A stretch of DNA of 64,000 bases from Nymphaea colorata (lineage: Eukaryota; Streptophyta; Magnoliopsida; Nymphaeales; Nymphaeaceae), in contig NC_045149.1 in NCBI RefSeq assembly GCF_008831285.2, forward strand, positions 14,224,629-14,288,628. Reading direction: 5' to 3'. This document shows positions 8,737 through 47,039 of the stretch, one piece after another (position 1 is the first letter of the stretch; each line of letters starts with the position of its first letter). Below the pieces are notes generated by a model. It ran no database searches and was not told where the DNA came from. It saw only the letters and a program-made list of their open reading frames with translations. The position numbers and the translations under genes are program-made.

Positions 8737-9053
8737 CTACGTCACACGGATACGCAGACTGGGTCGAGTACCTGTGTCGACACGCGGACACGGGGATCCC
8801 GACACGGCGATACGGCTGGATACGTTTTGGATCGGGTCTGGGTCAGACCCGATCCAAACCACTTGTATAACCGATTTTTTAACCCGCGTTTTGTTTTACG
8901 CACTGACCTCCGGCGATCGACGCTCGACCTTCGTTTACCCTCGACCGCTTCCGCAGCAGGCTGGCAGCACAGTAAGGCAATGGCGGGCGATGGCGACCTC
9001 CGGCGATCGACGGCGACTTCCGGTGGCGTCCGGCGGCAGCCAGCGACAGACAG

Positions 9054-9657
9054 GTAAGTGTTTTGTCGATTATTTTCGATAATAGAAGTTAGGGTTTCAA
9101 CTTTTATTTGGGGATTTTTTACATTGGGTATTAAAATCTGATTTGGGGATGTTTTGGTTTGAAGATTGGACGGTTTAGAATCATATTCTTCAATGCTATG
9201 TGCGATGTTTTCTTTTTTTTGTTTGATTTTGGGATTTGGGGATTTTGCCGTTTTGGGTGTATAACCGATTTGGGGATTTTGCCTTCGCTGTTGTTCATGA
9301 TGCTAGACAATGATGAATACGTGATATCTAGATGGCATTAACATATAATATACCATTCGTGAATGTTCCTGTTCACTGTTCACTATTCACTTCAGCCTTC
9401 GCTATTGTTCATGTTTCTTTTAGTTTTAGGCTTTAACGAACTGCTTCTGTTCCTGTTCACTATTCAATCTGGCAGTACTATCATTTACCATTCTTGAATG
9501 TTCCTGTTCACTATTCAGCCTTCGTTCTGCTTCTGAATCTTTGAAGTTTTGTGACTGCAGTGCATGTTTATACTTTGTCAGTTTGTTGTATTGTTTTATT
9601 TCATAAATTTTATGTTCATTATACGTTTTTTCCATTTTTTTATTATGTTTAATCTAG
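9054..9657 (+). other. Leader intron of the hAT transposase gene
   Basis: A consensus donor (acag/gtaagt, exon ending at 9053) and an acceptor (tttaatctag, ending at 9657) enclose 604 bp. The acceptor lies one base before the transposase ATG at 9659. The upstream segment 8737-9053 would be a non-coding GC-rich first exon in which gacctccggcgatcgacg occurs twice. The intron contains a degenerate repeat of cctgttcactattcac. Confidence 0.65.
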
Positions 9658-9658
9658 T

Positions 9659-11848
9659 ATGGCGAGCAAAGGAAAAACAGTGTCTCAGTCTCAAGACTCT
9701 CAACCTACAAGTTGTGGTTCTGGATCAGCTACACCTCAGCCACCATTATGGTCATACGTGAATCTAATGGGGAAACCTCCTGGAGGCGGTGGAAATGCTT
9801 TTTTTAGGTGTAATTTTTGTGAGGGACAGTTTAATGGATCATATACAAGAGTGAAAGCACATCTATTAAAAATCAGTCAAAAAGAAATTCAACCATGTAA
9901 GAAAATCACTAACGAGACTTTGGCTCAGTTGAAGAAAGAACAAAAAGCCTTTGAGAATAAGAAAAGCACATCATCTGGATCTGGTTTCATTGACATTGCT
10001 TCAATTTTACATGATGATATTCAGAATCCTACCAAAAAAAGAAAAGTTGTTGATGTTCATCAGAAATCAATTAAGGATTCATTTAGTTTACAAGGACGGC
10101 GAGAATTAGATCTAAAAGTGGCGACATTTTTCTATGCTAATTGCATACCATTTAATGTAGCTAGAAGTCCATATTGGAGAGACTTAGTTACATCTATTGC
10201 AAATTCTAACTTGACTGGGTATGTTCCCCCTAGTTCTGAAAGGCTTCGCACTGTACTACTAGAACAACAGATGACTCGAGTGAACAAATTGTTAGAGTCT
10301 CAAAAGTTCACTTGGGATCAACACGGAGTTTCTATTGTTTCTGATGGCTGGACAGATTTGCAACGACGCCCTCTTATTAATTTCATTGCAACTTCAGCAA
10401 ATGGACCAATTTTCTTGAAAGCAATAGATGCATCTGGTGAATACAAAAGTGCTGAGTATCTGAAAGGATTGTTTATGGAAATAATTGAAGAAGTGGGGAA
10501 AGAAAACGTTGTTCAGCTAATTACAGACAATGCACCTGTATGTAGAGCAGCTGGTATTGCGATAGAAAAGGAGTACCCTCATATCTTTTGGACTTCTTGT
10601 GCAGTTCATAGCGGCTCTAAAGAGTATATGCAATCCACCAAGTAAAGAGCAAGATCCTCATGCTTATGAATTATGTTCGTGGATTGAAGACTTGGAAAAG
10701 GATGTGAGGAACATCAGAAATTTCATAGTAAATCATCAACATGCACTTTCCATTTATAACAAGCATTCTGATCTAAAATTATTAAGAGTTGCAGAGACAC
10801 GTTTTGCATCTCTAATTGTTATGGTCAAAAGGATAAAAAGGGTGAAAAGTGCATTGATCAGTATGGTGACTGATGATGATTGGAGTTTCTACCGTGCTGA
10901 TGATGATGACAAAGCTCAAGCAATCAAAGGAATGATTCTTGAAGACAAGTGGTGGGATCAAATCTTTTATTTTCTTGCATTCACAGAACCGATCTGGGAG
11001 ATGTTGAGAGTTCTTGATTGTGATAATTCAACGTTGCACTGTGTGTATGAGATGTGGGACACTATGATTGAAAAAATCCAAGAGGTTATTTTTAAGCATG
11101 AAAAAAAAAGTATTGCACTTGAAGATTCAGCATTTTTTGATCATGTGCATAGAATATTGATTGCAAGATGGGATAAAAGTAGCAATCCTCTTCAATGCAT
11201 GGCACATACATTAAATCCTAAATATTATGGAAAAAAGTGGCTTACAGGGGGTGTTGGAAGAACCCCACCACATCTGGATCTAGAATTATCAACAAACAGA
11301 GTAGCATGTATTAATAGGATTTTCATTGATGTACATCAAAATCGCCGAGCTAATGATGAGTTTGAAAGGTTTTCTACTGGAATTGGAGAAGATGTAGGTG
11401 CAACTGTAGACAAAGATAATTATCCATCTTTATCTTGGTGGATTAAACATGGAACTGCTTATCCTACTCTTCAATACCTTGCTTTCAGATCATGCTGTGA
11501 GAGAAATTGGAGTACATATTCACAAATCCACACTATAAAACGAAATAATCTCACAAGCAAACGTGCAGAAAATCTGGTTTATGTGCATTCTAACCTTCGG
11601 CTTCTATCACGGAACAAAGAAGAATATAGGTAAATTAAGTATATGATTTATTGATTTAGATGTTTCTCTTCTTATTCGCTAACATCATAATAATTACAAT
11701 TTTTTTGTCTTGTAGGGAAGGAGAAACTAAATATTGGGACGTGAATGTTGAGGACTTTAACTTAGAACAAGAGAATGAACTTGAAGTTGTTAATTCAAGA
11801 TTCGAAGAACCTTGTATTCCCTCAACATCTTCTATTGTGGAAGAATAG
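9659..11848 (+). pseudogene. hAT transposase with one frameshift
   Basis: The first part (9659 to about 10615) opens with a BED-type zinc finger (CNFC, then AHLL and C, about residues 57-82). A basic PTKKRKVVD segment resembles a nuclear signal. A DUF659-type RNase-H-like catalytic region follows, with SDGWTD and ITDNAP carrying the first two acidic residues, and then FWTSCAVHS. The frame then shifts: the continuation (ALKSICNPP, the usual hAT sequence after VHS) is in another frame up to 11629. The C-terminal dimerisation domain is present (LSWWIKHG, SCCERNWSTYS, RAENLVYVHSNLRLLSRN), though a short piece before SCCERNW seems deleted. Donor gtaaat at 11630 and acceptor ttgtag at 11715 join EEYR to EGETKYWD, ending at the TAG at 11846-11848. 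About 730 residues in total, a usual length. The small indel near 10612 is the only clear lesion. Confidence 0.9.
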
Positions 11849-12153
11849 GAGATTGGGGAGAAGGATGATTTGGGCATTGATGATGACTAGAATGATGATG
11901 AACAATGTTTTGTGATGATTGATGAACAATGCTTTGTAACTTTCTTTGAGACTTTCTTGCTTATGTCTTAGCAGTTATCACTTTTGAGATTGGTGATGAA
12001 CAATGTTGTGTTTGAGACTTTCTTTATTATCATTTTTAATTTTTTTGAATATAATATTCACCGTATCCGCGTATCCTAAAATTTTGAAAATGCCGTGTCC
12101 CCGTACCCGTATCCGTGTCCCCGTACCCGTATCCGTGTGACATAGCTTTCTCT

Positions 12154-17640: not shown

Positions 17641-17831
17641 CCAAAAATGTCACAGTTTAAAATCGAGTACAAAATTGACTGGTCCTTTTGAAAAGAGATA
17701 AAAGGTTTTCTAGGCTCAATCCTAAGACTGGGTTATGTTGAAGACACTCGGTTAAGATGGAATAATGGTCCAGCCTTAATAATTTATCCCAAATGATATT
17801 TGAGACAAACAAAATGAAATTCATCACACTC
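17641..17831. repeat. Dispersed direct repeat R1 (partner at 21098-21292)
   Basis: About 190 bp starting ccaaaaatgtcacag and ending near atcacactc. It is matched in the same orientation at 21098-21292 with scattered substitutions and a short insertion (ctatgacaggctc against ctaggctc). Both copies lie next to BSL-exon repeats, so they are probably intron or flank sequence carried by the same duplicated unit. Confidence 0.85.
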
Positions 17832-18134
17832 TACAGGAGTTACTAGGTTTGAGGAGTTTCATCTATCCCATGAATGGATTTGGTAATGGAATGGCCAACA
17901 TCCTCGCACCTTTTGCTAAATAAATCTTCAAGCAGAAAAAATAAAACAGTTTATAAGAACATAAACCGTCCTAAACACGTCCTATTTGAACCCTTACAGA
18001 CTATAAGATATAAAATTTCACTCAAAAAAAAAAAAAACAACAAAGCAAACCTTTCCACCAATGTCGTGTGAGGTTAATGACTAAAGATCCAAAATTCTAT
18101 AAAAAATGAAGACTGGTGAAAATTCTATGGACAA

Positions 18135-18407
18135 CACCTGTTCCATCTGGGTCTTTGCTGTGTCAGGTCAAGAACATGTAGATCCTCCGCAGACAAGCCA
18201 GTTGGAAAAGAAATAAAATAATAAATAAACAAATAGGTAAGGTGAGAAAAAGCGAACACCACAACTAAGAAAGAGGCCAAAACGAGGAGTTCTGCTTTCC
18301 TCATTCAACAATGGGACAAAATGAAAAATCTAATTAACAGAACAAAATGCTATTAACCAAGAATAAGAAAAGATTTGTGCGAAGAAGAGAAGAAGCATGA
18401 CATTTTT
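18135..18407 (-). pseudogene. BSL: BSL Kelch exon, second copy (repeat R2)
   Basis: On the minus strand 18137-18202 reads LSAEDLHVLDLTQQRPRW, the sequence of one Kelch blade of plant BSL-type Ser/Thr phosphatases (the BSU1 family, which dephosphorylates BIN2-type kinases in brassinosteroid signalling), followed by a GT donor. The entire 270-bp block (exon plus the upstream intron-like sequence) recurs in the same orientation at 19972-20255 with few differences. Only this one exon is present, without neighbours of its own gene, so it is a fragment and not a functional gene. Confidence 0.8.
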
Positions 18408-18777
18408 ACCCCCTAAAAGCAATAGAAGAGGCAAACCATATTAAGTGCATAGTTCAAACACTTTTGAAAAGATAATCCAAAACAAAAAAATTGAACATGC
18501 CTCACAGTAACAGAACCTATTCCGATGCCCATAATTTAGAATGATAAAAGAAGGAATGTTGAACATGCCTCACATTAAGAAATTAACAGAACAGATGCCC
18601 ATAATCTAGAATGTAAACAAAGTGGAAAAGAGTACCAAGTTCTTGTTCGCCATAGGTATACAAATCATACAACTGCAAGGCACGTAAAAGTTGAGTGTCT
18701 TGCTTAATTACTTCAGTGAAAATCTGGACACTCTTGCACTAGTGCCTTAACCTGAACAAGCTTTTTGTATTCTATAC

Positions 18778-19426
18778 CTTTTCAGTCAAATCGAGTGCAC
18801 CACTAATAATTGTTGCCTCATCATGTGTTAGTTCCCCACCATTACCAACCTGTGGCATTGCAACAAACAGAGAAGTAATAGATATATTAACTAATGCAAA
18901 TAAAGAAAGAATACCTTTTTGCTATGGCTAGAAACAAGAGCTTTCAGTTGTGCACGCCTGAAAAGTGCAGACTCATTATGTCCAAGCAGAAAGTCCAGGA
19001 TCTACAAAAACAGAGAATCACTATGCAAACTAGAGAATATGTTGTACCATGCAGCTGCAGGCCTCCCGAAGTATTTCTCATCTTGACAAACCCAGATATC
19101 GTTTCCACGTCCTTTTTAAAGTTAAAACTTTCTTCGGAAGCACCGAAGTTCAAAATAATCACAAAACATGTCCATGATTGTTTAAGAATGCTTTTCAAAA
19201 TAACAAATGTAAGGATAGGCTTTCCTTCACCAAGAAAAATAGTGTATGTTCAGGAAATCAAAACTGAATTTATCTTTTACAGAACAAAACGATTTTTCTG
19301 CATGGGGTCACCTTCCCGATTGGATAAGCTATTGGATAGCAAATTATCATGAGAATATGGACAAGCCCTACCAAAATTGGCACCCACAGCAAGTCCATAT
19401 CTTGAACAGATGGCCTCTGGAATGAT
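18778..19426 (-). pseudogene. DUF21/CNNM-like (CBSDUF) gene fragment, three exons
   Basis: Three consecutive exons can be read on the minus strand. Exon 1 (19312-19426, after an AG acceptor) gives PEAICSRYGLAVGANF, then after a one-base insertion ILMIICYPIAYPIG. Exon 2 (18915-19001) gives 29 codons including LDFLLGHNESALFRRAQLKA. Exon 3 (18778-18849) gives GGELTHDEATIISGALDLT, then a GT donor. In plants the parent family (CNNM-like DUF21-CBS proteins) has an N-terminal membrane DUF21 domain, a pair of CBS domains and a proposed role in divalent-cation handling. These exons span only the end of DUF21 and its junction towards CBS. The frameshift and the missing 5' and 3' exons mark a pseudogene fragment. 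It lies directly downstream of BSL exons on the same strand. Confidence 0.85.
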
Positions 19427-19550
19427 CTGCAAAAGTTTAATGTTGAAATCAGAAATTCACTCATCAACAAAGAGTAGCCTCTACTAATAGTAACATAGGA
19501 AGAATCTAACTTAAAACCGATTTTAATAAGAAAGCAACCAATGACTTATA

Positions 19551-20040
19551 TGCATGGAGGTGGGCCTTCTCCTTCTGGCTCTAGTTTCCTCCACTCGTAG
19601 GGCTTGGCAGCTGTATCTAAAGCCCAGACATTAGCCAAAGGACTCTCTCACACTTTCCTAATGAATTTAAAAAAAGAAAATCAGCAAAAGAATTAGCATT
19701 GACTCTGTAAACATTTCCAGCATATTTCAGAAAGCAACACCAAAAATATTTAACATGTACAAAGAAAATTATAAGAAGAGATACCATCATTTCCACCAAT
19801 AGCCAACAGGAACCGCTGTCCAACTAGAGCCATCACATGGCCATATCGAGGACCTGGGCCAGCACCTTGTACAACCACCCTAGAACACAAGTACAACCAT
19901 TTTCATGAGCAAAGGCCTACATCCCAATGAGAATATACGCAGAAAATAAGGAATTACTGAAATTCAACGATCACCTGTGCCATCTAGGTCTTTGCTGTGT
20001 CAGGTCAAGAACATGTAGATCCTCCGCAGACAAGCCAGTT
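19551..20040 (-). pseudogene. BSL: BSL Kelch-domain fragment, three exons
   Basis: Three exons in the correct order for a BSL2/BSL3-type protein lie on the minus strand. Exon 1 (19975-20040) gives LSAEDLHVLDLTQQRPRW. Exon 2 (19785-19879, AG acceptor and GT donor in place) gives VVVQGAGPGPRYGHVMALVG followed by a FLLAIGGNDG blade end. Exon 3 (about 19551-19644) gives VWALDTAAKPYEWRKLEPEG and stops where the family continues with MYATA. An intact gene encodes an N-terminal Kelch propeller and a C-terminal PP1-like phosphatase, about 1,000 residues in all. Only about 90 residues of the Kelch part are present here and no phosphatase exon was found. The next coding sequence downstream on the same strand is DUF21, so the arrangement is chimeric. 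Confidence 0.87.
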
Positions 20041-20255
20041 GGAAAAGAAATAAAATAATAAATAAATAAATAGGTAAGGTGAGAAACAGCGAACACCACA
20101 AATAAGAAAGAGGCCAAAACGAGGAGTTCTGCTTTCCTCATTCAACAATGGGACAAAATGAAAAATCTAACGAAAGAGAATTAACAGAACAAAATGCTAT
20201 TAACCAAGAATAAGAAAAGATTTGTGCGAAGAAGAGAAGAAGCATGACATTTTTA
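19972..20255. repeat. Repeat R2, partner of 18135-18407
   Basis: It contains BSL exon 1 and about 215 bp of intron-like sequence (aggtaaggtgagaaa, gaggccaaaacgaggagttc). Homology to the other copy ends on the right at gcatgacattttta. A 10-base insertion (cgaaagagaa) distinguishes this copy. Confidence 0.9.
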
Positions 20256-23095
20256 AAAGGCACGATTCTTACAATTCCAAGTAACTAAATAGCATGTACA
20301 ACAGTTCTCTGGTCATAAAAAGGACAATCCTTACACTCACAAGAACAAAACTTTTCTAGCACTCCAGAGACAAACTGTGGCATATTTTTAAAATGTAGGC
20401 TTCCATGTTACCAAACACTAACCGAGTTGGATAATGAACAAAATAGCTTTGCACATTTTTAGAATGTAGGCTTCCATGTCAGCAAACACATGATTGTATC
20501 ATAACCAAGTTAGATGTGAGATGCGAAGTTCTTGTCAAAGATATTCAGTCAACCAACCTACAAACTTAAGCAATGTACGATATGCAATTCAAAGACTCTA
20601 TCAGAATGTGACACACGAACAAATGAACTTGATGAGATTATATTTACCAAAAGAATCAAGTTCTCTCGGGCTGACATTTTCAGGCCTATTTCGCCCGCAT
20701 GACGCCGAGAGATAGTCGGTCTGCGACACAAGTGAATGCATTGAAAAATGAAAACCAAGCAACTAAGACAACAAAACTCCTAAACAACCCAGCTGGAAAC
20801 CACTAAAGCAGAAAATAAGCAAGATTGAACTACTATAAAATCAAACCAGCAATTGCCCAATTCAACAAACTAAACAATCAAACTAAATCAAAATAAGATC
20901 CTCCTGAAAACAAATCAAGGCAATGACCTTAACCTATCCTGGACATGTGCAATAGCTAACTAAAGGATCTATTCAACTAACCTGACACTAACGTGACACA
21001 AGAAGAAAGAATCCGACTACTAACCTGGGTTTAAAACCATGAAGGACCCGAGGACATAAAACCCAAAACTCATGCAACTTCAACGAATAGAACCTTTCAA
21101 AAATGTCACAGTTCAAAATCAAGTACAAAATTGACTGGTCCTTTTAAAAAGAGATAAGAGGTTTTCTATGACAGGCTCAATCCTAAGACTGGGTTATGTT
21201 GAAGACACTCGGTTAAGATGGAATAATGCGCCAACCTTAATAATTTATCCCAAATGATATTTGAGACAAAGAAAATGAAATTCGTCACACTCAAAGCCAA
21301 AGGAGATAGGCAATGAAATGACTTTCAAGACCAAAGGAGATTGGTTAGTTCCTCCAATGACAAGAGATGTCAAGTTTTTACTTTGAAATAATTCAAAAAC
21401 GATCAATTTAACTAATAAGCATGAGTGCTCGTGTTGTGCAAATAATATGACCTTCATTTACACATAGTACCGTACAAGCATTATGATTCATTTCGCGTCA
21501 ATGCCGTCAAATCTCTAGAAGGGATGCCTTCCAATTTCCAAAATATGAACATAAAGGAATCATCATTAGCATGTTAGGTAATCAAAAATAGAAGAAGATA
21601 TTGACCCTAGAATCGCACATCTACCAAAGATTGTCACATTCAATTCCTGCAAGTTCAGCCTTCATGCCTTTAATCTCTTGCCAGACACCTTTTGCTTTTT
21701 TTTCCTCTTATTTTCTTTTCTTTCTTTCTCTTGCATTCAGCTTTTGTCTTTCGATCTTCTTTTTCTTTGATTTTTTTTTTTTTTAGGCCGACCTTCACCT
21801 TTGAGGGAATACCTCACCACCCCAAAGGCTACTATGAAGCTCCACCCCTTTGGTGGTTGTGTGTAGCTTTGTCGCATATCCAACCCGCTTCACCTTGCGG
21901 GTTTTCAACGAGCCAAAGGTTCATAAGTCGTTATCTTCGCGGTATAGACATAAATCACCTATATGTCTACCCGGTACTCTTGATTACTGACCCAGAGGAA
22001 CGACTACACAAGCCCCGAGCCCATCTCTCAACTCTCATTTTGCTATCTTTCAAGATCTTACAAAGCATTTTGGCTTCTCTCTCAGGATATTTTCCTGCTA
22101 AATCCTTGCAAATGTTTGATTATCAGAGTCAATAGCATTTCCTAGTTTTGACATTCTCAACTTTACAGGAAGTTTCCTTACTGCTCATATCCAGGATCTT
22201 TTCAATTTTCCTCTTCCATTGTTTGGCGACAAAAACTTGAAATTTTATTCTTCTACTCAAGGAGGTACTAAGAATAAAACAAAGCCACATCATGGTGTGA
22301 GAAGATACTTTTAAAATGTTTTCAAGCAAAACTAAAAATTATCACTTTCACAAAAAAATCTTGACATCAAATAATATATCATCAAGAGGAAGGAATTCTA
22401 CTCTAAAGAAGAGGGTGAATGCAAAACAACATAGGTTGGTTCAGTAGAAAATTGAACTTCACCAACTCTCCTAGGGACTTCTATACAAAAGGTTGGTTGT
22501 CGATATAGATTAGTAAACTCATTTAATCTGAAAATTATTGGATGACAAAAAAAAAAGAAATTAACAATCAATTACACAATTAAATTTAAAAGTCAAATGC
22601 AAACAATCTATCTACTCTATCCCCAACTATCTAATTGATCCTTCCTTGCATTTTAAGCTCAATAATTCAATAATAGCAAAAAAATGGCCATTTAATACAA
22701 GGAGAATAGAAACACACCCATAAAATGGAGTGAACCTTTAATTACTCAGTTGAATCCTATTTTTTACTAACTTCAAGACATAAAATCACACCTAAAAAAA
22801 AATCAAAACAATTGAGCAAGCAAAATTACAAACCTTTACGCCAGTGCCGTGTGAGGTTAATGAGAAAGATTCAAAAATCCAAAAAAAGTTTATGAATGCT
22901 AAATAATGTGGCAATTCCAACCCAAGTGGCTCAACTGAAAACTGGTTTCCATTTAATACATATCAAAGAACACATTCTTTAACAATAGATTTCCAAAATT
23001 GCATAGTAGTTCTAAAGATATGATTGAGACAATGACAATAACATGATTTTTGAGATGCTTACATTGCATTACTTTGTTCCTTGAAATCATCATCT
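20256..23095. other. No gene recognised; transposon-like and intron-like sequence
   Basis: Contains repeat R1' (21098-21292). The stretch 20640-20720 has an open minus-strand reading (SRRHAGEIGLKMSARE) that I do not recognise. The stretch 21785-22040 is more G+C-rich and open on the plus strand, but I cannot place it. A second occurrence of ccgtgtgaggttaatga (about 22848) parallels 18064, which suggests a further piece of the same duplicated unit. Confidence 0.35.
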
Positions 23096-23099
23096 GAGG

Positions 23100-23389
23100 T
23101 TTCCCACACTAGCCGACCCAACTACTCCCCTCCGTTCCATATCCAAAACTGCTTCAACAGCATCGTCTATCTTACCTTCTCTCCAACAGGCAGTCATAAG
23201 AACTGAGAAGTTAAAGGAAGAACACATACTTTAGCCTTAAGTAATATCTATGAAATGCATTTCCAAAAAGTAAAGATGACATCACCTTTATATGTGTGAG
23301 AATTTGGAGCAAGTCCTCTTTTTCTCATTTTTCCAAAAAACTTGTGAACAAGCTCATATTTTCCTGCTTTTAACATCACCTTCCAAAGG
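23100..23389 (-). pseudogene. DG1: DG1-type PPR gene fragment
   Basis: Two minus-strand exon pieces are readable. 23284-23389 gives VMLKAGKYELVHKFFGKM and RKRGLAPNSHTYK before a GT donor. 23100-23205 gives WREGKIDDAVEAVLDME and RRGVVGSASV. These are adjacent segments of the pentatricopeptide-repeat protein DG1 (DELAYED GREENING 1, chloroplast gene expression) as I remember the family. After SASV the reading loses the expected continuation and meets stops. No start, targeting peptide or other PPR units were found nearby. The piece shares strand with the BSL, DUF21 and CPI1 fragments. The PPR assignment is sound; the DG1 assignment is from memory and less certain. Confidence 0.7.
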
Positions 23390-23399
23390 AGGAATTTTA

Positions 23400-23998
23400 T
23401 AAATAGCATGTAAAGTGAATCTCAGGGCAGAAGCAAATCACTAATAAGAAGCACGAAGCAAAAATACATCTCATGAAGTACATATGCATCACAACCATAT
23501 TGCTCTCATCTTCATGAAACCAGCAAAGTGATGTCCGCATGTTTTCTAGCTGTATTGCAATTTGCAACATCTCATGTTCAAGAAATTTCCACAAACAATC
23601 AATATGGTCAAAATGCCATCATGCTCAACTTCATGAAGCTTTGGCAACATCCTCACCAAAATGAATTCTTATCATATCCTCCTCATTTTCACATGAAATC
23701 TCTCAATATCATGAAACTTGTTGGTACACTATTTTATAAAAGATATTCTCACGTGTCAGTTCTACTTTCCATTTACAAACACAATCAATTTTACAACAGT
23801 ACGAGCAAAAGCAGTTAAAAAAATACACAATGCATATACACAGAAGCAAGAACATTTTGCTCATAAATAAGTTCATTAGCCCATTTGATTGCAACATTTT
23901 CCTTTTTCATAAATAGCTTTAGCTAGAATTTGCTGGCAATTAGGCATCATTATCCATTGGGATAGTTCAATAACCATTAAACTACATGCAAGACCATC
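23400..23998. other. No gene recognised
   Basis: AT-rich with short open frames on both strands and no identifiable motif. It may be intron or flank of the DG1-like fragment. Confidence 0.35.
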
Positions 23999-24346
23999 TA
24001 CATGTTATTAATCAAATTCAGGAGCAAGAAAATAACTTTGAAGACCAAAAAGTAGTCCAAGATAGGGTAATTGCAAAATAATGGTGAGCAGGGTTTGCTT
24101 CCTAAACAGCTTTTCATACTTTTTATGTATTCTTCATTCTAAAGATGAAGCAAATCCCAAATGACGTGATAAATGTGTGTGTGCATCTGTTGCATATGTG
24201 CTATTTTGTAAGATATGCATTTTAAACTGAAATTTAGAAGCATATGTTGTCTTGCAAAAGAAAAGAACAAAACTCTATTTGTAAAAGAAATTATAAATGA
24301 TGTAGAATCTCAAAGCTTCACAATATTTTTTCTGTCAGTATCTTAC

Positions 24347-24444
24347 CTTATGAACATGGGGAAGCTAACTATAAAGTAAATTGCATAGAACAATGATCCC
24401 ACTCTGTACATTGCTGAGCGATCTACAAACTCATGGTACGGAAA
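24347..24444 (-). pseudogene. CPI1: CPI1 (cycloeucalenol cycloisomerase) single exon, copy A
   Basis: A 98-bp minus-strand exon bounded by a CTGCAG acceptor and a GTAAGA donor reads FPYHEFVDRSAMYRVG then SLFYAIYFIVSFPMFIR. This is the conserved transmembrane part near the C-terminus of cyclopropylsterol isomerase CPI1, an ER membrane enzyme that opens the cyclopropane ring in plant sterol synthesis. No other CPI1 exon was found on either side, so this is an isolated exon and not a gene. The exon itself has no stop or frameshift and its splice sites are intact. Confidence 0.85.
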
Positions 24445-25742
24445 CTGCAGATCATTCAACATAAATGTGAGAATGGCACATAAAACTTTCTCTGGAAAAG
24501 GATTGAGGATAAAACACAGTAAGCAAGTTCATTGCCTCAACCTAATTTCAGATCAAAAACAGGCAGAAGAGAAAAATTTTAGTGCAGAATCCACTTTTAC
24601 ATTGGGTACCCGTGATTTATCAAGATGTTTCTGAACTTCCAAGTATAAAACATGTCTTATACTAGTGGCTAAACAGACACAAATAAGGAACCAAAAATGA
24701 CATAGGAACATGTGTTCAGCATAACCTTGGAGTTAGGTTGCTATCATTTAACTTTGATTAGATGGATGTACAATAAGAAAGCAACCAGTCACAAACTGAA
24801 AAATTAACAGCAGCAGCGGCAAAATAGTACTAGTAGTAGTAAAAGTCAACGAGTCATATATAGTAATGCTTGCAAAAGCACTAGCAGCAGCCGCAGAAAA
24901 ACAAGAAAAAAACCTTGAGAGATCTTCAATGTACATTGGTCACTTTGAATTTTGAAACATAGATCAGAATAAGATTTTGATACTTTTCTACCTAATTCCT
25001 ACTTGATGAGGTAAGTGGAGCAATGTTAGACTCATTGGTCACCTGTGCCAGCTGCCCGCCTCACTGTAATAAGTACGGTTTAGTAAAGTTTTTCCTAAAA
25101 AATTTGGTGTACGTTGAAAATTTACCAATATCAGGCAGTGAAATGCCACCATTTACATTCTTCATAAGTGGAGGCACCAACCTACTGCTACAGGCCATCC
25201 TTGTTACCAGAAGCACATACTTTGTTTGTGGAGATTTTCATGGCCAGGCTTATCCTACGTTAACTTAACTGTGGCAGATGTTAATGTTATTTTTTCCTTG
25301 CCTCTGCTACTTTTTCCCCATCACTTTGACACATATTGCTTCATGTCCATCTCCAGTTAAACCTGAAAGGAACAATATAACGCACAAACAGTGCTGGTGG
25401 CCTGCTGATGACACATGTTTACTCTTAATCCACTGCTTTACCTAGAAACAGAAAATTAGTTTCTGTACTTTTTTATTATTCAAAAAATAATCAATCAATG
25501 TAATGGAAAATTTTCCAAAGTAAATTTGTAAAGCTCTAGTAGGCCAACATAGTATGGATATTCTGAAACAAGAATTTGGCTTAAATGGAAACGTTGAATA
25601 GGTGGTTACAGATTATCTTGATAAGAAAATGTTGAAAATTAAGGGAGTTATTTGATTAAGCTCAGGGTTTTCTAATATTTTCAAGAGTTTTTGAAGAAGA
25701 AAACAACTAGTATTCGGAGTTCAAGGCCAGATATGACTTCTC
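24445..25742. other. Duplicated non-coding sequence, no gene recognised
   Basis: It matches 34774-36071. There is an open plus-strand stretch of about 80 codons (25023-25268) kept in both copies, but it has no recognised motif and lies between intron-like sequences. A short AGC/AGT-rich stretch sits at 24806-24900. Confidence 0.4.
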
Positions 25743-25747
25743 AATGG

Positions 25748-25799
25748 TGATAGAAATGTAGCACCAATATCTGTAACCCGAAAACAGCACTCAAGCAGG

Positions 25800-25840
<41 letters not shown>

Positions 25841-26203
25841 TGAAAACAAGAAGAAACTGAGGAGAAGAAGCCGTAGCCAAAATGGTTTGCACGGCCTCTA
25901 TTTATAATCTCATTTTCAGAATTCTAAGAGTCTCCAATCGTAGAATCCTAGGAGATTTCACAAGCTCCAAGGACATTAATTACATCATAGAAACCTAAGA
26001 GACTTCACATATTACAAGGATATTAACTACAACATAGAATCCTAGGAGACTTCCCATATAACAAGGATATTAACTATAACATAGAATCCTAGGAGACTCT
26101 TCACATGTTACAAGGACATTAAATATTTTAACACATTCTACAAGGAGGTGGAATCCTAAGAGACTCCTCTTCAACGTGCTGGTGAAGGATTTATATTTTA
26201 ACA
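25748..26203 (-). repeat. 3' LTR of copia element 1
   Basis: 456 bp, tgatagaaat to ttttaaca in plus orientation. It contains a (GA)n run and five related units of about 46 bp built around the word cctaggagac. The polypurine tract lies just inside (about 26204-26214, gagggaggg on the minus strand). The gag-pol stop codon TAA falls in the first six bases of this LTR. Confidence 0.95.
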
Positions 26204-29200
26204 CCCTCCCTCAAGTTGTGCATGGTTTTGCACCATGTACAACTTGCCTTTTAGAAACCAGAATCGTTCCTTTGTTAATCCTTTTGTAAATAAGTCTGCA
26301 ACTTGTTCATCTGTACGAACATAAATAGGCTGAATTTCCTTGTCTTCCACCTTTTGTCTAACAAAGTGTTGATCAATCTCAATGTGCTTTGTTCGACCAT
26401 GTTGTACGGGATTAAAGGCAATGTTAATAGCGCTTTGATTATCGCACATTAACATTGATGTTTTAATCTTTTCTCCAATGTCTTCTAGCAAATGTCTAAC
26501 CCATGTAACTTCAGCAGTACCTGCAGCCATGCATCTGTATTCAGCTTCAGTGCTGGATCTTGCTACTGCCTTTTGCTTTCGACAACTCCAAGACACAAGA
26601 TTACGTCCAATGAAAATACAAAAACCAGAAATGGACTTTCTTTGATCGGGATCTCCAGCCCAATCTGCATCTGTGAATGTCATAAGTTGATGTCCAGTAG
26701 TTATATTTTCACTCTTACCATAAACTAAGCCATCTCCTGCTGTCCCTTTAAGATATCTTAATATTCTTTTGACAGCATCCATGTGAGTATCTCTAGGTGC
26801 ATGCATAAATTGGGATACTTGATTCACAGCATATATAATATCTGGTCTAGTAAATATAAGATATTGAAGTGCCCCAACAATACTTCGATATTGCGTAGGA
26901 TCTTCATATAACTCCCCATCTTGAGCACTTAGTCTTTGATTTAGAACACTAGGAGTTCCAACAGGCTTACAATCAGACATACCTGACTTTTTCAACAAAT
27001 CCAACGTGTATTTCTGTTGTGTCAATGTGAGGCGATTATTGTGCCTATCAATCTCCACTCCAAGAAAGAATCGTAAATCACCAAGCTCTTTCATTTTGAA
27101 GTTTTGCATCATCAAAACTTTAGCTTCTTCTATGTGTTTTTCTGAATTGCCTGTGATAACAATATCATCAACATATATAAGAAGTAAAGTAAATATGTTT
27201 TCCTTTCGATAAATGAAAAGAGAGTGATCTAGAGGACATCTCCGAAAACCACATTCTTGAATCTTGCAAGAGAAACTGTCAAACCACGAACGTGAGGCCT
27301 GTTTAAGTCCATAAATAGATTTTCTTAGTTTGCAAACCCATGCATGAGAGTCTCCTTTCGTGTATCCTGGAGGTTGTTCCATATATACTTCCTCCCTTAA
27401 ATCACCATGAAGAAAAGCATTCTTCACGTCCATTTGATGTAGTCTCCATCCATATTCAACTGCCAATGATATAATCACGCGAATTGTTCCCATTTTGATC
27501 ACAGGGCTGAATGTCTCATCATAATCTTCTCCATATTGTTGTGTAAACCCTTTTGCTACTAACCTTGCTTTGTGTCTTTCTATGCTGCCGTCAGGTTTGT
27601 ATTTAATTTTGTATACCCATTTGGAGCCCACTACGTTCTTTTCGTGTGGCCTCGGAACGATCTCCCATGTTCCACATTCATGCAAGGCATCCATTTCTTC
27701 TTTCATAGCCTTTCTCCAATGATGTGATTTTGATGCTTCATCAAATGAAGTAGGTTCTTCCTCCTTGCCAACTTTTGCCATGAATAACTGAAAATCAAGT
27801 GATAAAGAATCATAGCTAACCCACCTGTGAATGGGATGACGAATGCGTTGGGATCTTCTAAGGTGGGGCATGTTGTCTTCTTCACTGTGAGCATCTCTGT
27901 CCCTTAGTCGTCGACTGTAGATAAGACCCGAATACCGATGTGCATCGTTGCTCTGTTCATTATTGTTTTCGTGATGACTTAATGACTGTGTTGGATCTTC
28001 TTGATTTTCACTTTGAGCCATATCCGACGGTTGTATTGCTCTCTCTGAATCTTCACTTTGAGGCACATCATTTTCTATAACAGGATCTGCATTGAATAAC
28101 TGTGTACTGGTCCAGGGATCATAAGATTCAATGGTCATAGGCATTTCATTTGTATTATCAAAACTATGTTCATCAAAAATGACATTTCTTGAAGTTTTGA
28201 TACGTTTAGTTGTTGGATCATAGCATCGAAAACCTTTATATTCATCAGAATATCCAACGAATCTACATTGAATAGCTTTGTCTTGAAACTTGTTCCTCAA
28301 GGCAGCATCAACGTGAACATAGCATACACAACCAAAAACCTTCAAGTTCTTGTAATCAGGTTGTTTGCCTAAGAGTGTAAAATATGGCGATTTAGACATC
28401 AAGAGTGTCATAGGCAAACAATTTATTATGTATACAGCAGTATGGAAGGCTTCAGTCCACAAGGAAATGGGCACATTAGTATCATGCATCATGCTCATGG
28501 CGCTTTCAACTATATGTCGATGTTTCCGCTCAACTACACCATTTTGTTGTGGTGTGTAAGGGCAGGAAATTTGTCTAGTTATCCCTTTTTCACGTAGAAA
28601 TTCAATAAAATCAAGCGAGGAATATTCTCCCCCTCCATCACATTGAAAATGCACCACATTGGATGAAAATTTAGTTTGAATCATGGCATAGAAGTTTCGA
28701 AATATGTGAGGTACTTCTGATTTGTGTTTCATGAAGTAAATCCAGGTGAAACGTGAGTAAGAGTCAATGAATAAGACATAATATCTTGACCCAGACATGG
28801 AATCAATAGGGGCTGGCCCCCATACATCAGAAAAAATAGTTTCAAAAGGTTTGGAAGCCCTTTGATTTATATTATGGAAAGGTAAAACATGACTCTTACA
28901 AAGTCCACAACTTGAACATTTTTTGACACTTGAAGTAAGAGGTAAACTTGATCTTGGAATGAGACTATCTGTGACAAGTTTTTCAATGAAATGTCGACCA
29001 CAGTGTCCTAGCCGACTATGCCACAAATCAGACTCCAAAAATTGGTTAGGGCCCCTTACTTTTGATTGAAAATGGCAAGAACTTGGCACTGATGACGCAT
29101 TATGAGAAAGAGAAAATGTCTTCAATCCTATATCAAAAGTGGATGAATCCTTGGGTAGACATTCCTTGAGGACGTACATATTCCCTTGACGCTCCCCTCT

Positions 29201-30514
29201 AGCGAACATTTTCTTCGTTTGGAGGTCCTTGACATAGACAGAAGAAGGTGTGAATTCAACAGAAGAGCTTGTATCATCAATGAGTTTAGAAATGGATATG
29301 ATGTTCTTTTTGATATTGGGAGCAAGAACAACATTAGACAGTGATAGAGACGAGGATGACAATGGAATATGTGCATTTCCAATATGTGTAATAGGATGAG
29401 ATTTTCCATCACCTGTTATAATGCAACTTCTACCGTAATGAGGGGATAAGTTAGTCAATTTACCTGCATTTCCTGTCACATGGGTAGCTGCACCTGAATC
29501 CAAGAACCATTCTCCCTGCTCATTTTGCTTTATAGTCATCTTTGAGAATGCGGCCATCAATAGCTGTTGCATATCTTCAGCGGTGGATTTAGAACTTTGT
29601 CCTCCTTGTTTATAATCATGTCTTACTCCTTTGTTTTTATTTTGAGGATTAAACCAACATTGTGCCTTCATGTGTCCTTTCTTGTTGCACTGAAAACAAA
29701 TTGGTATTTTTCTTGAAGTATCCAAAGGAGACATACCTTGGTTATGTGGTGTTGGTAGAATGCCACGACCACCATGGTTGGAGTTCCCATGGCTCTTACC
29801 AAACTTTACATTCATAGCCAACACATTTTGGGAGTTCCCTTGATCAGTCCTTTCAATGACTCTTTTCATATTCATTTCATGTTGGAGAAGTTTACCTTGT
29901 AGTTCGTTGAAGGAAGGCAGAACAGGAAGGACCTCAAGAGCTGTAATAAAAGCATGATAATCATGCCCAAGTCCATTCAAGGTTTGCTGCACCTTTTCCT
30001 TATCAGAAATGTTATTCCCTGAGGCAGCAAGTTGGTCTGCGACGGCCTTAATACGCCCCAAATAATCCATGATAGACGTTGAACCTTTGCTCAAATTCTG
30101 AAATTCTTTCTTTAAGTACATAATTCGAGCTTCTGATATTTGGGAAAAGGTATCAGCAAGGGTTTCCCATAATTCTTCTGCAGTACAATCATCAGAAACT
30201 GAAAGTAACACTTGTTGAGATAAAGTGGACAAAATATACGCAACCAGACTTTGATCACGTCTCATCCACATAGCATGTTCAGGATTGTTGTCTTCATGAA
30301 CAGCAATAACTTCTCCTGCCTCATTTTTTATTTCCTGTAAGACGGATATTGGTGGAGCCTTTGTTGAACCATCGAGATGTCCAAAGAGGCCTTGACTTCT
30401 TATGAAAGGCATGATTTGCCTTTTCCAGATCAGATAATTCTCATGGTTGAGTTTTTCGGTAATAAGGTGAGGAAGAAAACTTGAGGACATGCCAGAATGC
30501 GAAAGGTTTTCCAT
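26198..30514 (-). CDS. Copia gag-pol polyprotein, intact
   Basis: 1,438 codons from the ATG at 30514 (MENLSHSGM). The frame stays open upstream to 30613, but the added residues look like leader. Order along the protein: gag (residues 1 to about 270), zinc knuckle CFQCNKKGHMKAQC (about 275), aspartic protease WFLDSGAATHVTGN (about 340), integrase zinc motif starting HSRLGH (about 498) and catalytic core beginning FSDVWGPAP (about 565), reverse transcriptase with YVDDIVITGN (about 1110), and RNase H with SSTEAEYRCMA (about 1325). Integrase before reverse transcriptase defines the Ty1/copia type. No stop or frameshift interrupts it. The last codons are specified by the polypurine tract and the stop by the LTR edge, so the coding region uses the whole interior. 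Confidence 0.95.
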   Translation of the reverse strand: MENLSHSGMSSSFLPHLITEKLNHENYLIWKRQIMPFIRSQGLFGHLDGSTKAPPISVLQEIKNEAGEVIAVHEDNNPEHAMWMRRDQSLVAYILSTLSQQVLLSVSDDCTAEELWETLADTFSQISEARIMYLKKEFQNLSKGSTSIMDYLGRIKAVADQLAASGNNISDKEKVQQTLNGLGHDYHAFITALEVLPVLPSFNELQGKLLQHEMNMKRVIERTDQGNSQNVLAMNVKFGKSHGNSNHGGRGILPTPHNQGMSPLDTSRKIPICFQCNKKGHMKAQCWFNPQNKNKGVRHDYKQGGQSSKSTAEDMQQLLMAAFSKMTIKQNEQGEWFLDSGAATHVTGNAGKLTNLSPHYGRSCIITGDGKSHPITHIGNAHIPLSSSSLSLSNVVLAPNIKKNIISISKLIDDTSSSVEFTPSSVYVKDLQTKKMFARGERQGNMYVLKECLPKDSSTFDIGLKTFSLSHNASSVPSSCHFQSKVRGPNQFLESDLWHSRLGHCGRHFIEKLVTDSLIPRSSLPLTSSVKKCSSCGLCKSHVLPFHNINQRASKPFETIFSDVWGPAPIDSMSGSRYYVLFIDSYSRFTWIYFMKHKSEVPHIFRNFYAMIQTKFSSNVVHFQCDGGGEYSSLDFIEFLREKGITRQISCPYTPQQNGVVERKHRHIVESAMSMMHDTNVPISLWTEAFHTAVYIINCLPMTLLMSKSPYFTLLGKQPDYKNLKVFGCVCYVHVDAALRNKFQDKAIQCRFVGYSDEYKGFRCYDPTTKRIKTSRNVIFDEHSFDNTNEMPMTIESYDPWTSTQLFNADPVIENDVPQSEDSERAIQPSDMAQSENQEDPTQSLSHHENNNEQSNDAHRYSGLIYSRRLRDRDAHSEEDNMPHLRRSQRIRHPIHRWVSYDSLSLDFQLFMAKVGKEEEPTSFDEASKSHHWRKAMKEEMDALHECGTWEIVPRPHEKNVVGSKWVYKIKYKPDGSIERHKARLVAKGFTQQYGEDYDETFSPVIKMGTIRVIISLAVEYGWRLHQMDVKNAFLHGDLREEVYMEQPPGYTKGDSHAWVCKLRKSIYGLKQASRSWFDSFSCKIQECGFRRCPLDHSLFIYRKENIFTLLLIYVDDIVITGNSEKHIEEAKVLMMQNFKMKELGDLRFFLGVEIDRHNNRLTLTQQKYTLDLLKKSGMSDCKPVGTPSVLNQRLSAQDGELYEDPTQYRSIVGALQYLIFTRPDIIYAVNQVSQFMHAPRDTHMDAVKRILRYLKGTAGDGLVYGKSENITTGHQLMTFTDADWAGDPDQRKSISGFCIFIGRNLVSWSCRKQKAVARSSTEAEYRCMAAGTAEVTWVRHLLEDIGEKIKTSMLMCDNQSAINIAFNPVQHGRTKHIEIDQHFVRQKVEDKEIQPIYVRTDEQVADLFTKGLTKERFWFLKGKLYMVQNHAQLEGGC

Positions 30515-30723
30515 GACAGCAGAAAAGAATGGTATATAGGTAGAAGATGAGAGGGAAAGAAGACACGATATAACAAGATGTGTCCTTGGTAAGCAAGAAG
30601 AAAAAAGGAACAAGAATTGCGCAAGAGAAAAGTAAATTCAGGATAGAGACAAGATGAGAAAAGAGTTCTAACCAGATCAGACCTGTTTGGGCATTTCGTT
30701 TGGTAGAGATAACGTAACCTGGC

Positions 30724-30735
30724 GCTCTGATACCA
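30724..30735 (-). promoter_or_regulatory. Primer-binding site of copia element 1
   Basis: On the minus strand the 12 bases next to the 5' LTR read tggtatcagagc, complementary to the 3' end of initiator tRNA-Met, the usual primer for plant copia reverse transcription. Confidence 0.93.
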
Positions 30736-30787
30736 TGATAGAAATGTAGCACCAATATCTGTAACCCGAAAACAGCACTCAAGCAGG

Positions 30788-30828
<41 letters not shown>

Positions 30829-31191
30829 TGAAAACAAGAAGAAACTGAGGAGAAGAAGCCGTAGCCAAAATGGTTTGCACGGCCTCTATTTATAATCTCA
30901 TTTTCAGAATTCTAAGAGTCTCCAATCGTAGAATCCTAGGAGATTTCACAAGCTCCAAGGACATTAATTACATCATAGAAACCTAAGAGACTTCACATAT
31001 TACAAGGATATTAACTACAACATAGAATCCTAGGAGACTTCCCATATAACAAGGATATTAACTATAACATAGAATCCTAGGAGACTCTTCACATGTTACA
31101 AGGACATTAAATATTTTAACACATTCTACAAGGAGGTGGAATCCTAAGAGACTCCTCTTCAACGTGCTGGTGAAGGATTTATATTTTAACA
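30736..31191 (-). repeat. 5' LTR of copia element 1
   Basis: 456 bp, same length and sequence as the other LTR by eye, including the GA microsatellite. In element orientation, U3 carries the repeated 46-bp units, then a TATA box, then R/U5 with the (CT)n run. Confidence 0.95.
30886..30894 (-). promoter_or_regulatory. TATA box in the copia 5' LTR
   Basis: The minus-strand sequence is tataaatag, a strong plant TATA box. It lies downstream of the repeated U3 units and about 150 bp before the end of the LTR. It is the likely promoter for the element RNA. Confidence 0.7.
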
Positions 31192-31196
31192 AATGG

Positions 31197-33087
31197 GACC
31201 ATGCAGTCTGCAGGAGTTGGAGTGCTTTCTGTGTTGAAAGATCCTCTAGCACTGGTAGGAACCGCATGCTTTCCTTCATATACTATGAGGGTGGTGGGAA
31301 TGTTAAGTCTCCCTTCCAGTGGAATAACTATTTGTGCAAAGAACTTTCACTGAATGCAAGTGAAACCTGCCTTGTAGATGCATGTTTGTAAGTGGTAGGA
31401 AAGGCTTACAATCACCTATCAAAAGGGAAAGCTAGTACTTATATGCCATTGTTCTGCTTCATTTAGTTATTTCTTCTGGTAGTATTCTATAAAACCTAAT
31501 CCTTGGAAGCTTATTTACTATTTAGTGTGTAGAAGATGCGTCACTAAGGTTGTAAGCATGCAGTATCAACTGCTGACAGTATAGTTGCTTACATGTTCTT
31601 TTTTTCCTTCTATCCATCAGAAAGTTGCATTTGCATACACTCTATCAACTGTGTTTGTTGATATTTTTTCATTATGATCTTGGCAGTATTAAGAATTAAT
31701 TGAATTAAAATGCACCTAAAGTAGGCTTGTTGGACTTCAGATGATTGTATATATGTCTTTTCTTGTTACGTGACTAATGTGGGTTCCAAAAAGAACCAGT
31801 TCTTCTGCTATCTGATTTTGGAATTTTATGCAAAAACAGAATGCTGAAAAATCTTCTGAGGACTCAGCAAAGGCTGATAGGAAAAATGACTTTCTTGTAA
31901 AAGAAGTGCAGGCAGAGCCTGACCTGAATCTGTCTATGAAGGTAAATGGAACAAGTAATTCAAATGAAGCTTTTACTCCAGATCATAGAAAATCATCTAA
32001 AATGACATTGGAAGAAGTATCTTTAGGTAGTGACTGCCCAGAAATTAATGGACAGTCTGAATCTGCACATTTGTAACAGAACACAATTTCAGACATATCA
32101 TTAGCTATACGCACAGGTGCTTTATTATCAGATACTGATAATGTAGATGGTGAAGCTAGACTAGCTAATAGTGCGAATGTTGTCAATGCAAGGGTGCTGA
32201 GTGAAGGGACTCCAGGGCAAAGTAATGAGGTTGCCTCATGCACACCAGTAGTACCAAAAGATTTTGATAAAGACGTTGAAAAAGGAAATGCTGCCTCCAA
32301 GATGGCAGAAAACCAAATGACTGCAAAGAGTGACAGCAGAATAGATCATGAACACAAAAATTGCGGAGAAGAGCCTTGTAGCACAGGTTTGGAGATGGGA
32401 GACAACAGGACTATTGGAAATGGTGTCAACACAAAAGTAGTAGTGCTGAAGGCTCCAGGTGACAATGATAAGACTGTAATGCACACTGAAGTGGTACAAG
32501 AAGTTCATGATTACAAAGAACATGGAAAAGGACCTGCAGACACTGGTTTGGATAATGCACATAACCACATAAATGCAGACAGTCTCATTTCAAAGGGGAT
32601 GATGCAGAATGCACCAGGGGATAATAGCAAGATCATGTCTGGGAACTCACCAAGACCTAAATGTTATGATTACAAAGAGGGTGGAGAATGTCCGAGTATG
32701 GTTTCACTTCAGAGATGTCAGACAATCAAATAACTGCAAACAATCCTGCCACAAAAATGATGGTGCTGGAAGCTGCAGGGGATAACAGTGACATTGCATC
32801 AGGCAACTCAGTAGGACAAAAAACTTATGACTGCAAAGAAGGTGGAAGAATTCTGGCTGGTTCAGACACAGTCAGCAATGGTGTTATAATAGATATAGGA
32901 GATTTAAAAGTTGAAGAAGAGGCTGAAGAAAAAGAAGAAAGAAACACTGTAGAAGGAGGTGAAAATAACAAAGGAGTGCAGACGGATAGCCTGGTGCTTG
33001 CATAAATCATTAGTTTTAGTAATGGAGATGGAGAAAATGCTGATGAACGCAACAAAAGTGCAGCAGAGGATGGAGATACTGTCCATG
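31197..33087 (+). pseudogene. gar2-like nucleolar protein gene, 5' part, copy A
   Basis: This corresponds to the first exons of the copy at 36076-39939. A first coding block ends at the donor near 31389 (gtaagtgg). A large exon starts at 31840 after acceptor aaaacag and carries a repetitive acidic sequence. Lesions: TAA at 32074-32076, a frameshift near 32690 and TAA at 33003-33005. All occur at the equivalent positions in copy B. The downstream exons that would carry the conserved C-terminal region are missing because homology stops at about 33087. The copia element lies immediately upstream of this piece. Confidence 0.75.
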
Positions 33088-33141
33088 CCGATATAAGATT
33101 GCTTTCCTTTACAGGTTATAAGCCTGTTGTCATTGGCTACC

Positions 33142-34325
33142 AGCAAAATCAAAATACACGAAACTAAGTTTAAAATTGAAGACGAACATATCCAAACCAG
33201 GCCCAAGAACAAGCATCCGTCATGAACCCAATCCCAACAACAGAATCAGCAAAAGCAAGAATAATCAGAAAAGCCTAAACATCACCAAAGCGTCACACCC
33301 AACAACAGAATTCGCACAAGAAAGGAAACAGACAGTGAATCGAAGACAATAAAATGCAGTCGACGGTAATTATGAGAACACCCAAAACGGAATACATGAA
33401 AACCCAACAAAAATTCTGTGCCCTGCAATGGGCATAGAAGTTACCGGGAGGAAGAGAAGGGGAAACAGACATAGTAAGGAGCCCTAATGTTGGTAAACAG
33501 CACGGCAGCCATCGTAAACAGCAATGGGCCGATGGGCGATGGCTGCCGGTGGAACAGAGGAACAGAAAAGGGAGCTCAAGACGGCGAGAAGCGATTCGCT
33601 GTTCGGCTACCACCTACCCACAGCAGAGAAAAAGAGAGAGAGGGAGAGAGAGAGAGAGAGAGAGACATGAGTAACCTGACGAATGAGGTTGTTCCACGAA
33701 AAACTACTCCAAACAGCATCCACGAACAAGTTCATACCCACGATCACAGATCAATTTTGCTCCACATCATCCACTTGAGGACGCCAGACGGGAGATCGAC
33801 CGTCGGAGAGTTGGAGGACGCGGCGGCCGGCCAGGGAGAGCGGTAGTCGGGAGTGAAGAACTCGACGAGCGTCGAAGAAGATGCAAGGCAAGGCGACGGA
33901 GGACTTGACGACCACCGAGGATGAGTGGAGGAGCGAAAGAAAGAAGGCCGCCCGATCGTTCGTGTCACATTTGGAAAGCGGTTTAGTGCGAATCGTTTCT
34001 TGCAACAACTCGAACCAGGTATCTTTTGGACCGAGTCACGCTTTAACTAACCGAGTTCATTGAACAACTCCATTCCGCTTACATAAACCAGTCGAGTCAT
34101 GAACTCGTACATGGTTAAGACTGAGCTCCAGCCAAGCTTTAATGAGCTTAGCTTCTAGTTCAGGCCTACTTCCACAACCACATACATGGCCCTTTGCAGA
34201 TAAAGAGCGAGTGGTGGGAAACATATACGTCTAAAAGTTTTCCTGTCTTATTATGGACTCCAACTCTAAGCATTGATATTATTGGAACTCTATCCAGAAA
34301 ATTTGATCTGGTCTCGTGTACATTT
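33142..34325. other. Spacer between duplication copies, with GC-rich stretch
   Basis: 33142-33480 is plain intergenic. 33480-34010 is rich in CG and resembles the 5' end of a plant gene read on the minus strand. It has a (GA)n run at 33635-33664, which would be a CT-rich leader. An ATG at about 33739 starts MNLFVDAVWSSFSWNNLIRQ, which ends at a possible GT donor. I do not recognise the protein and no second exon is evident. 34010-34325 shows nothing. Confidence 0.35.
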
Positions 34326-34675
34326 TACATGTCATTAATCAAATTCAGGAGCAAGAAAATAACTTTGAAGACCAAAAAGTAGTCCAAGATAGGGTAATTG
34401 CAAAATAATGGTGAGCAGGGTTTGCTTCCTAAACAGCTTTTCATACTTTTTATGTATTCTTCATTCTAAAGATGAAGCAAATCCCAAATGACGTGATAAA
34501 TGTGTGTGTGTGCATCTGTTGCATATGTGCTATTTTGTAAGATATGCATTTTAAACTGAAATTTAGAAGCATATGTTGTCTTGCAAAAGAAAACAACAAA
34601 ACTCTATTTGTAAAAGAAATTATAAATGATGTAGAATCTCAAAGCTTCACAATATTTTTTCTGTCAGTATCTTAC

Positions 34676-34773
34676 CTTATGAACATGGGGAAGCTAACTA
34701 TAAAGTAAATTGCATAGAACAATGATCCCACTCTGTACATTGCTGAGCGATCTACAAACTCATGGTACGGGAA
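34676..34773 (-). pseudogene. CPI1: CPI1 single exon, copy B
   Basis: The same 98-bp exon as in copy A, with the reading frame and both splice sites intact (one synonymous difference at the start, ttcccg for tttccg). It again lies without any other CPI1 exon, so the exon was already isolated before the duplication. Confidence 0.85.
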
Positions 34774-36071: not shown

Positions 36072-36075
36072 AATG

Positions 36076-42281: not shown

Positions 42282-42504
42282 TGTAGAAACACGATGTAAT
42301 GTGGAAAAACCCTCAACAAGAGGGAAAAAACCACGGATGAGGAGGAACTGGTGCCCACTAGCAACCAGACTCTCTCTCTCTTAAGATTTCATTAACACAC
42401 TTAAAATTAGGGTTACAATCTTTAAGTAAGGCCCAACAAGGGCTATACAATGGATCGGTATGGACCCAGACCCGGTCCCGAGACCTATCTAACATGCTTC
42501 AACA
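42282..42504 (-). repeat. 3' LTR of copia element 2
   Basis: 223 bp, tgtagaaaca to cttcaaca. It is followed on the inner side by the polypurine tract, which in minus orientation reads ttgagggggag. Confidence 0.93.
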
Positions 42505-46916: not shown

Positions 46917-47039
46917 GTGGCACGGGAGAAAAAAAAAGGTTCACCGGCGGCAGCAAGGGGCACGACAGACCTGGAAGGCGATGCCTGGCACCGGTGGTAG
47001 GTCGGACGGAGCAGACAGGCGGAGTAGACAGGAATGAGT

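Follow-up and report, generated by a model that had tools for sequence, protein, structure and literature searches.

The 64-kb stretch of Nymphaea colorata DNA considered here, which we call the window (C12:14224629-14288628 of the searched genome; a position in it is prefixed with w where needed), carries at 18135-24444 a block in which pieces of several unrelated genes stand side by side. In our reading, to which we assign a probability of about 80%, this block belongs to a mosaic pseudogene duplicon that was built by end joining and amplified by duplication. The block is not one unit but a section of a mosaic that exists in many copies, some of them in tandem; this 6.3-kb slice is an arbitrary one because the fullest copy read or mapped extends over about 20.5 kb. 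An earlier note on the same DNA had favored capture by a Helitron or Pack-MULE transposon and named repeated segmental duplication as the alternative; it is the alternative that agrees with what was found, namely a mosaic in many tandem and dispersed copies with common breakpoints.

The gene pieces of the block were confirmed on the minus strand at the positions given by the earlier note. From left to right they are a CNNM/DUF21 fragment with three exons and their introns (18400-19536), a BSL Kelch fragment likewise with three exons and introns (19537-20043), a segment (22499-23549) with a pentatricopeptide repeat (PPR) piece at 23100-23389, and a CPI1 fragment (23999-25520) with one exon at 24347-24444. 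Between the BSL and PPR pieces lie two plus-strand stretches, a segment X (20044-20343) and the inner part of a high-copy repeat R (20344-22498), for which five copies were compared (L029-L033). Peptides for the Pfam search were spliced by hand, and residues of the window were used to bridge a frameshift and an 8-bp insertion described below. They matched Kelch for BSL (PF24681, 1.2e-13), PF01595 for CNNM/DUF21 (9e-9) and PPR_2 for PPR (4.2e-14), and no Pfam family was matched by the CPI1 exon. The BSU1 phosphatase was the top of 24 PDB matches of the BSL peptide (2.2e-21).

As the earlier note had stated, the gene pieces are incomplete, come from unrelated genes, and retain introns, so that DNA and not RNA was their source. 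For BSL, w19526-20043 is 93.3% identical to the gene on C1, and for CNNM three stretches of w18400-19535 match the C11 gene (L023) at 92.8-95.6%, introns included; in the two intervals between them the window lacks C11 source sequence, about 0.9 kb in one and 60 bp in the other. The note further read many splice sites as intact. The donor of the third BSL exon has changed from GT to AT in the window, and the other donors and acceptors inspected are preserved. A fourth BSL exon at 18137-18202, listed as a piece of its own, belongs instead to an internal repeat in which 18135-18408 corresponds to 19972-20255 (94.7% over 284 alignment columns), and a separate capture of this last exon is thereby ruled out. 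The repeat comprises a partial second BSL exon copy on the minus strand (18136-18207) and a second copy of segment X on the plus strand (18208-18408). Further left are segment Y (17903-18135, plus strand), a diverged R-related sequence, part of which is 72.8% identical to 22764-22887 and which occurs beside R-like sequence in L021, and a plus-strand piece of R (17642-17902) resembling 21098-21292 plus about 77 bp.

Alignment to the genome (407,766,735 bases in 783 contigs), proposed in the earlier note as a check, located three parent genes, those of BSL, CNNM and CPI1, together with other copies of the block. For BSL the source is a gene of several exons at C1:8.374-8.384 Mb, in which matches cover residues 2-190 of the 190-residue query, and the BSL fragment is of this lineage (C1:8.38 Mb). 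CNNM has its source at C11:10.793-10.799 Mb, a region that contains each of nine exon segments taken from a paralog on C9. The CPI1 source, a multi-exon gene at C9:2.325-2.335 Mb, was located with a 278-residue CPI1 query protein, of which residues 5-74 and 84-276 are covered by six matches; the CPI1 pieces in the window match it at 98%, and the piece at 23999-25520 corresponds to C9:2.3287-2.3302 Mb. By these alignments the C1, C11 and C9 genes are shown to be the sources of three of the four gene types. No source gene was found for PPR among the 40 of 77 candidates that were scored.

The mosaic continues to the right of the block. The CPI1 piece lies in a second duplicated segment, in which 23999-33092, less a copia insert, equals 34326-37972 at 99%, and the CPI1 fragment of this tandem copy (34176-35849, minus strand) extends further left. 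The region w38000-42170 consists of four pieces, three of which derive from C9:2.353-2.358 Mb with their order kept; the fourth is CPI1 from C9:2.3260-2.3274 Mb in the orientation opposite to the other three, and forms a further CPI1 fragment (40186-41554) inside the piece of the neighboring C9 gene. Its exon at 41467-41559 is on the plus strand, as are the open reading frames (ORFs) of the neighboring gene. The arrangement of the gene pieces on a single strand, which the earlier note took as the mark of capture, therefore holds inside the block but not beyond it, and the chance that four pieces all fall on one strand is 1/8.

Copies were searched with w18700-20100 as query, which gave 57 matches (40 of 41 candidates scored), and 20 genome stretches were read, with smaller ones added afterwards (loci L001-L048). 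Joins were counted in L009-L048 and the window with at most two mismatches accepted, leaving aside L001-L008, which are partly the same places. The CNNM/BSL join is present at 14 places including the window; of the 13 others four are on C12, seven on C3 and two on C14, with no more than one mismatch in any of them. The BSL/X join was counted 20 times, X/CNNM seven times and Y/BSL five times. The inner joins are thus partly common to the copies, and another example is the join of 23549 to a 130-bp piece, seen in five loci, the window not among them. Most loci read do not cover the joins further right: the one at 25520 was seen in L020 and at two positions of the window, the left CPI1 join at 40190 in the window only, and the right CPI1 join at 41554 in three loci besides the window.

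The fullest copy, at C12:13.849-13.869 Mb, follows the window from w14000 to w42170 over the above 20.5 kb, lacks the copia insert and has a 2.3-kb gap at w15987-18292. The copies at C12:14.35, C12:14.50, C3:29.06 and C9:9.19 Mb follow the order R-PPR-CPI1 as far as about w41.5 kb but are interrupted by gaps, insertions and local repeats, and C9:7.57-7.61 Mb has the same pieces rearranged. In long matches the C12 copies at 13.86, 14.35 and 14.50 Mb are 98-100% identical to the window, and at C12:10.498 and 10.501 Mb copies stand in tandem at a spacing of 3586 bp; another tandem array is at C3:14.2 Mb. Taken together, the mosaic DNA is longer than 1 kb, more than 90% alike, of low to moderate copy number and present at several places, as is characteristic of segmental duplications; its separate source loci and the breakpoints common to its copies are those of a mosaic segmental duplication.

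The lesions carried by the copies speak to the order of events. Only matches extending over 80% or more of the query stretch entered the alignments, and partial copies dropped out, for CNNM exon 4 for instance the first L014 copy. One extra G, a +1 frameshift, is present in CNNM exon 4 of all 15 aligned dispersed copies, window included, and absent from both the C11 gene and the C9 paralog. Similarly, all 13 aligned copies of BSL exon 3, among them the window and a copy at C12:0.24 Mb, share the same 8-bp insertion, which the C1 gene lacks. The C12:0.24 Mb copy is the closest one to exon 3 of the BSL fragment; it has single-base differences from C1 in common with the window, and in pieces it is collinear with a large part of the BSL locus on C1. 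At C14:9.50 Mb (L018) and C12:0.20 Mb (L021) there is a frameshifted CNNM piece that includes more of the gene than the joined copies do, with no BSL in the 10 kb read, from which it follows that CNNM was already broken when it met BSL. Because the CNNM/BSL join and the lesions are common to the copies, a single joining event followed by duplication is indicated, and independent captures of the CNNM and BSL pieces are ruled out on the same grounds. Within C12:0.195-0.248 Mb (L021 and L022) a distance of about 42 kb separates a CNNM piece from a long BSL pseudogene copy, and both carry the lesion known from the mosaic copies; this region is a possible staging place of the mosaic.

The suggestion that the block could give a spliced Kelch-DUF21 chimera can be set against the same lesions. 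Read by eye from exon 2 with the splice sites of the source gene, the 8-bp insertion brings a stop inside BSL exon 3. The donor of this exon is lost in the window and four others of the 13 aligned copies, and eight keep it; CNNM exon 4 is out of frame in the window. Given the splice sites of the source genes, the predicted Kelch-DUF21 fusion protein is thus broken in the window. Mismatches to the sources amount to 10/524 in exons versus 44/950 in noncoding sequence with exon limits set by eye (exon rates of 1.2, 2.5 and 2.8% versus 2.9, 5.1 and 5.4%), a difference expected if the source genes were constrained and the pieces were not. The pieces look like non-functional pseudogene debris, and what this mosaic offers is no new gene.

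How the pieces came together may be read from the joins, six of which were set against their sources, with microhomology assessed by eye; these show microhomology or short filler, as end joining leaves. The CNNM/BSL join is nearly blunt (0-2 bp of microhomology), BSL/X has 0-1 bp, X/CNNM possibly shares up to 7 bp, and the join at 40190 has 2 bp. After 25520 stand about 13 nt of unexplained filler. The filler after 41554 is about 4 nt and lies within the 10-mer TCCTCAGGGA, which recurs at 40197, not far into this same CPI1 piece; a match of this length was obtained in 20 of 2000 first-order Markov resamples. In plant end joining, filler is often copied from nearby DNA (PMC2686159), and microhomology with templated insertions is ascribed to polymerase theta (PMC10923293). 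We propose that breaks repaired by end joining would have fused unrelated gene pieces and a high-copy repeat with microhomology or filler, possibly through polymerase theta. CNNM would have met BSL by way of copies like the two at C12:0.20 and 0.24 Mb, which are now about 42 kb from each other. Local tandem duplication of the joined segment would have come next, together with its spread to several chromosomes.

Both capture by transposons and the repair of breaks have been named as routes of gene movement (PMC3445842). A rolling-circle Helitron that gathered gene pieces and spread, also in tandem, would account for intron-containing pieces of several genes on one strand within the block and for tandem and dispersed copies on several chromosomes. 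However, the copies have no single pair of outer ends in common in the stretches read. An outer boundary of the block falls at w18857 on the left of the array at C12:10.50 Mb, at about w18798 at C14:9.50 Mb, at w19045 at C3:29.06 Mb and at w20040 at two C9 places. Also against a Helitron are plus-strand pieces that adjoin the block, and pieces that occur separately and were joined stepwise, such as the X-R sequence that lacks BSL at L028 and L039, both on C9. Finally, no 3′ hairpin with CTRR was found on either strand of 12-26 kb under a strict rule with no positive control, a weak negative since 0.27 per strand are expected by chance in mononucleotide shuffles. On balance we regard Helitron capture as very improbable.

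Capture by a Pack-MULE or another inverted-repeat transposon deserves hardly any credence, even though picking up gene pieces is a known habit of such elements (also stated in PMC3445842). Scans for inverted repeats bordered by an exact target duplication of 8 or 9 bp gave none with both ends inside 16.1-26 kb. Under two rules the scan of 12.2-26 kb gave 30 and 20 candidates for 8 bp and one and one for 9 bp, all with target words of A and T only; the 8-bp scan recovers the hAT transposon of the window as a positive control, and the 9-bp scan had no such control. Among 149 inverted pairs in 12-34.5 kb, the longest 25 are AT-rich, low-complexity or weak. Genuine ends are detectable in the window, because those of the hAT and copia elements were found with their duplications. 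The transposon origin put forward by the earlier note is therefore not borne out, neither element ends in these scans nor common outer ends among the copies having been found.

A third vehicle could be a large long terminal repeat (LTR) retrotransposon, with repeat R, perhaps part of a Ty3/gypsy element, carrying the gene pieces along. Between C15 and C12, R aligns collinearly, with gaps, along about 18 kb, and it has few ORFs (L029-L033 and L035-L038); first looks with two of its parts gave 862 and 326 candidates, of which 40 each were scored. R forms part of the mosaic, an ORF for an integrase end of Ty3/gypsy type (PF24626) adjoins it on C15, and R-like stretches flank the CNNM piece at C12:0.20 Mb. 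Yet what these flanks have in common is an overlap of about 0.6 kb and not a 5-bp duplication, the mosaic contains no more of R than 2.2 kb of its inner part, the pieces retain their introns, and the window has no LTR pair around the block. Hitch-hiking of this kind appears quite improbable.

Several observations weigh against a mosaic assembled by end joining and spread by duplication. The outer ends of the mosaic are beyond the stretches read, the C3 and C9 copies remaining alike past w42178, and a large mobile vector may have its ends outside these stretches. Five inner joins recur as blocks in several loci, which would be expected equally of a mobile unit. The gene pieces measure 0.5-1.7 kb, against the 1-131 bp of the fillers quoted in PMC2686159; the term filler fits the small inserts at the joins and not the pieces, which far exceed this size. 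The chance of the templated filler, about 1%, is a value before allowing for the several joins inspected, the microhomology was called by eye, and tandem arrays may hold assembly errors. Moreover, of the three BSL exons of the fragment the first two showed no match in the C12:0.24 Mb copy, which is for this reason a sister and not the exact donor. In another reading the mosaic would move as a unit, either as circular or otherwise mobile DNA or on a very large undescribed element with its ends outside the stretches read; in the former case rearranged segments would circularize or be mobilized, amplify in tandem and re-enter several chromosomes. We consider this rather unlikely, and prefer end joining followed by segmental duplication.

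The remaining features of the window are mainly transposons. A copia retrotransposon (25748-31191, minus strand) sits inside the mosaic and is not among the joined gene pieces. It has identical 456-bp LTRs, a 5-bp target duplication and a single open frame of 1479 aa, its empty site is kept in the tandem copy at 36072, and it is a very recent insertion. The duplication at C12:13.86 Mb seems older, because the spacing there shows the insert to be absent. The hAT transposon (8737-12145) has inverted ends matching in 13 of 14 bases, an 8-bp target duplication CTTTCTCT, and ORFs for DUF659 and hAT dimerisation. At least 17 other near-full matches, obtained when 40 of 894 candidates were scored, are 95-99% identical to the portion used as query, suggesting a young family. 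An older copia-type element (42282-47882) has 224-bp end repeats 96% alike, broken ORFs and a target word alike at 4 of 5 bases by eye; relatives at 74-82% flank the mosaic piece at C3:29.06 Mb on both sides. It adjoins a field of diverged tandem repeats with a period of about 115 bp in both orientations (48000-53300). At 4448-6495 there are R13L1-type leucine-rich-repeat ORFs, perhaps a broken resistance gene.

Literature searches turned up no title on this mosaic, which is a weak test. The value of the mosaic is that a single genome contains everything from sources and likely intermediates to exact joins and later copies, so that one can read in what order the gene pieces were joined. It also cautions against inferring Helitron or Pack-MULE capture from the mere fact that gene pieces with introns share a strand. 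Such capture is known to bring several intron-containing gene pieces together, and the block resembles it in this respect and in its single strand, but differs in having neither element ends nor a target duplication in the scans and no common outer boundaries. Mosaic segmental duplications of animal genomes, or duplicons, combine several donors and shared breakpoints with tandem and interchromosomal copies. All of these are found here as well; the present case differs in being from a plant, in containing much high-copy repeat, and in that a core gene under selection is not shown. In plants, the chimeras of maize p2/p1 formed by end joining are similar in that intron-containing gene parts were joined at breaks, and in their small filler, some of it from nearby (PMC2686159). 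Unlike in the chimeras described there (PMC2686159), the pieces of this mosaic come from several chromosomes and exceed the filler sizes quoted, and the joined mosaic has been amplified to many copies.

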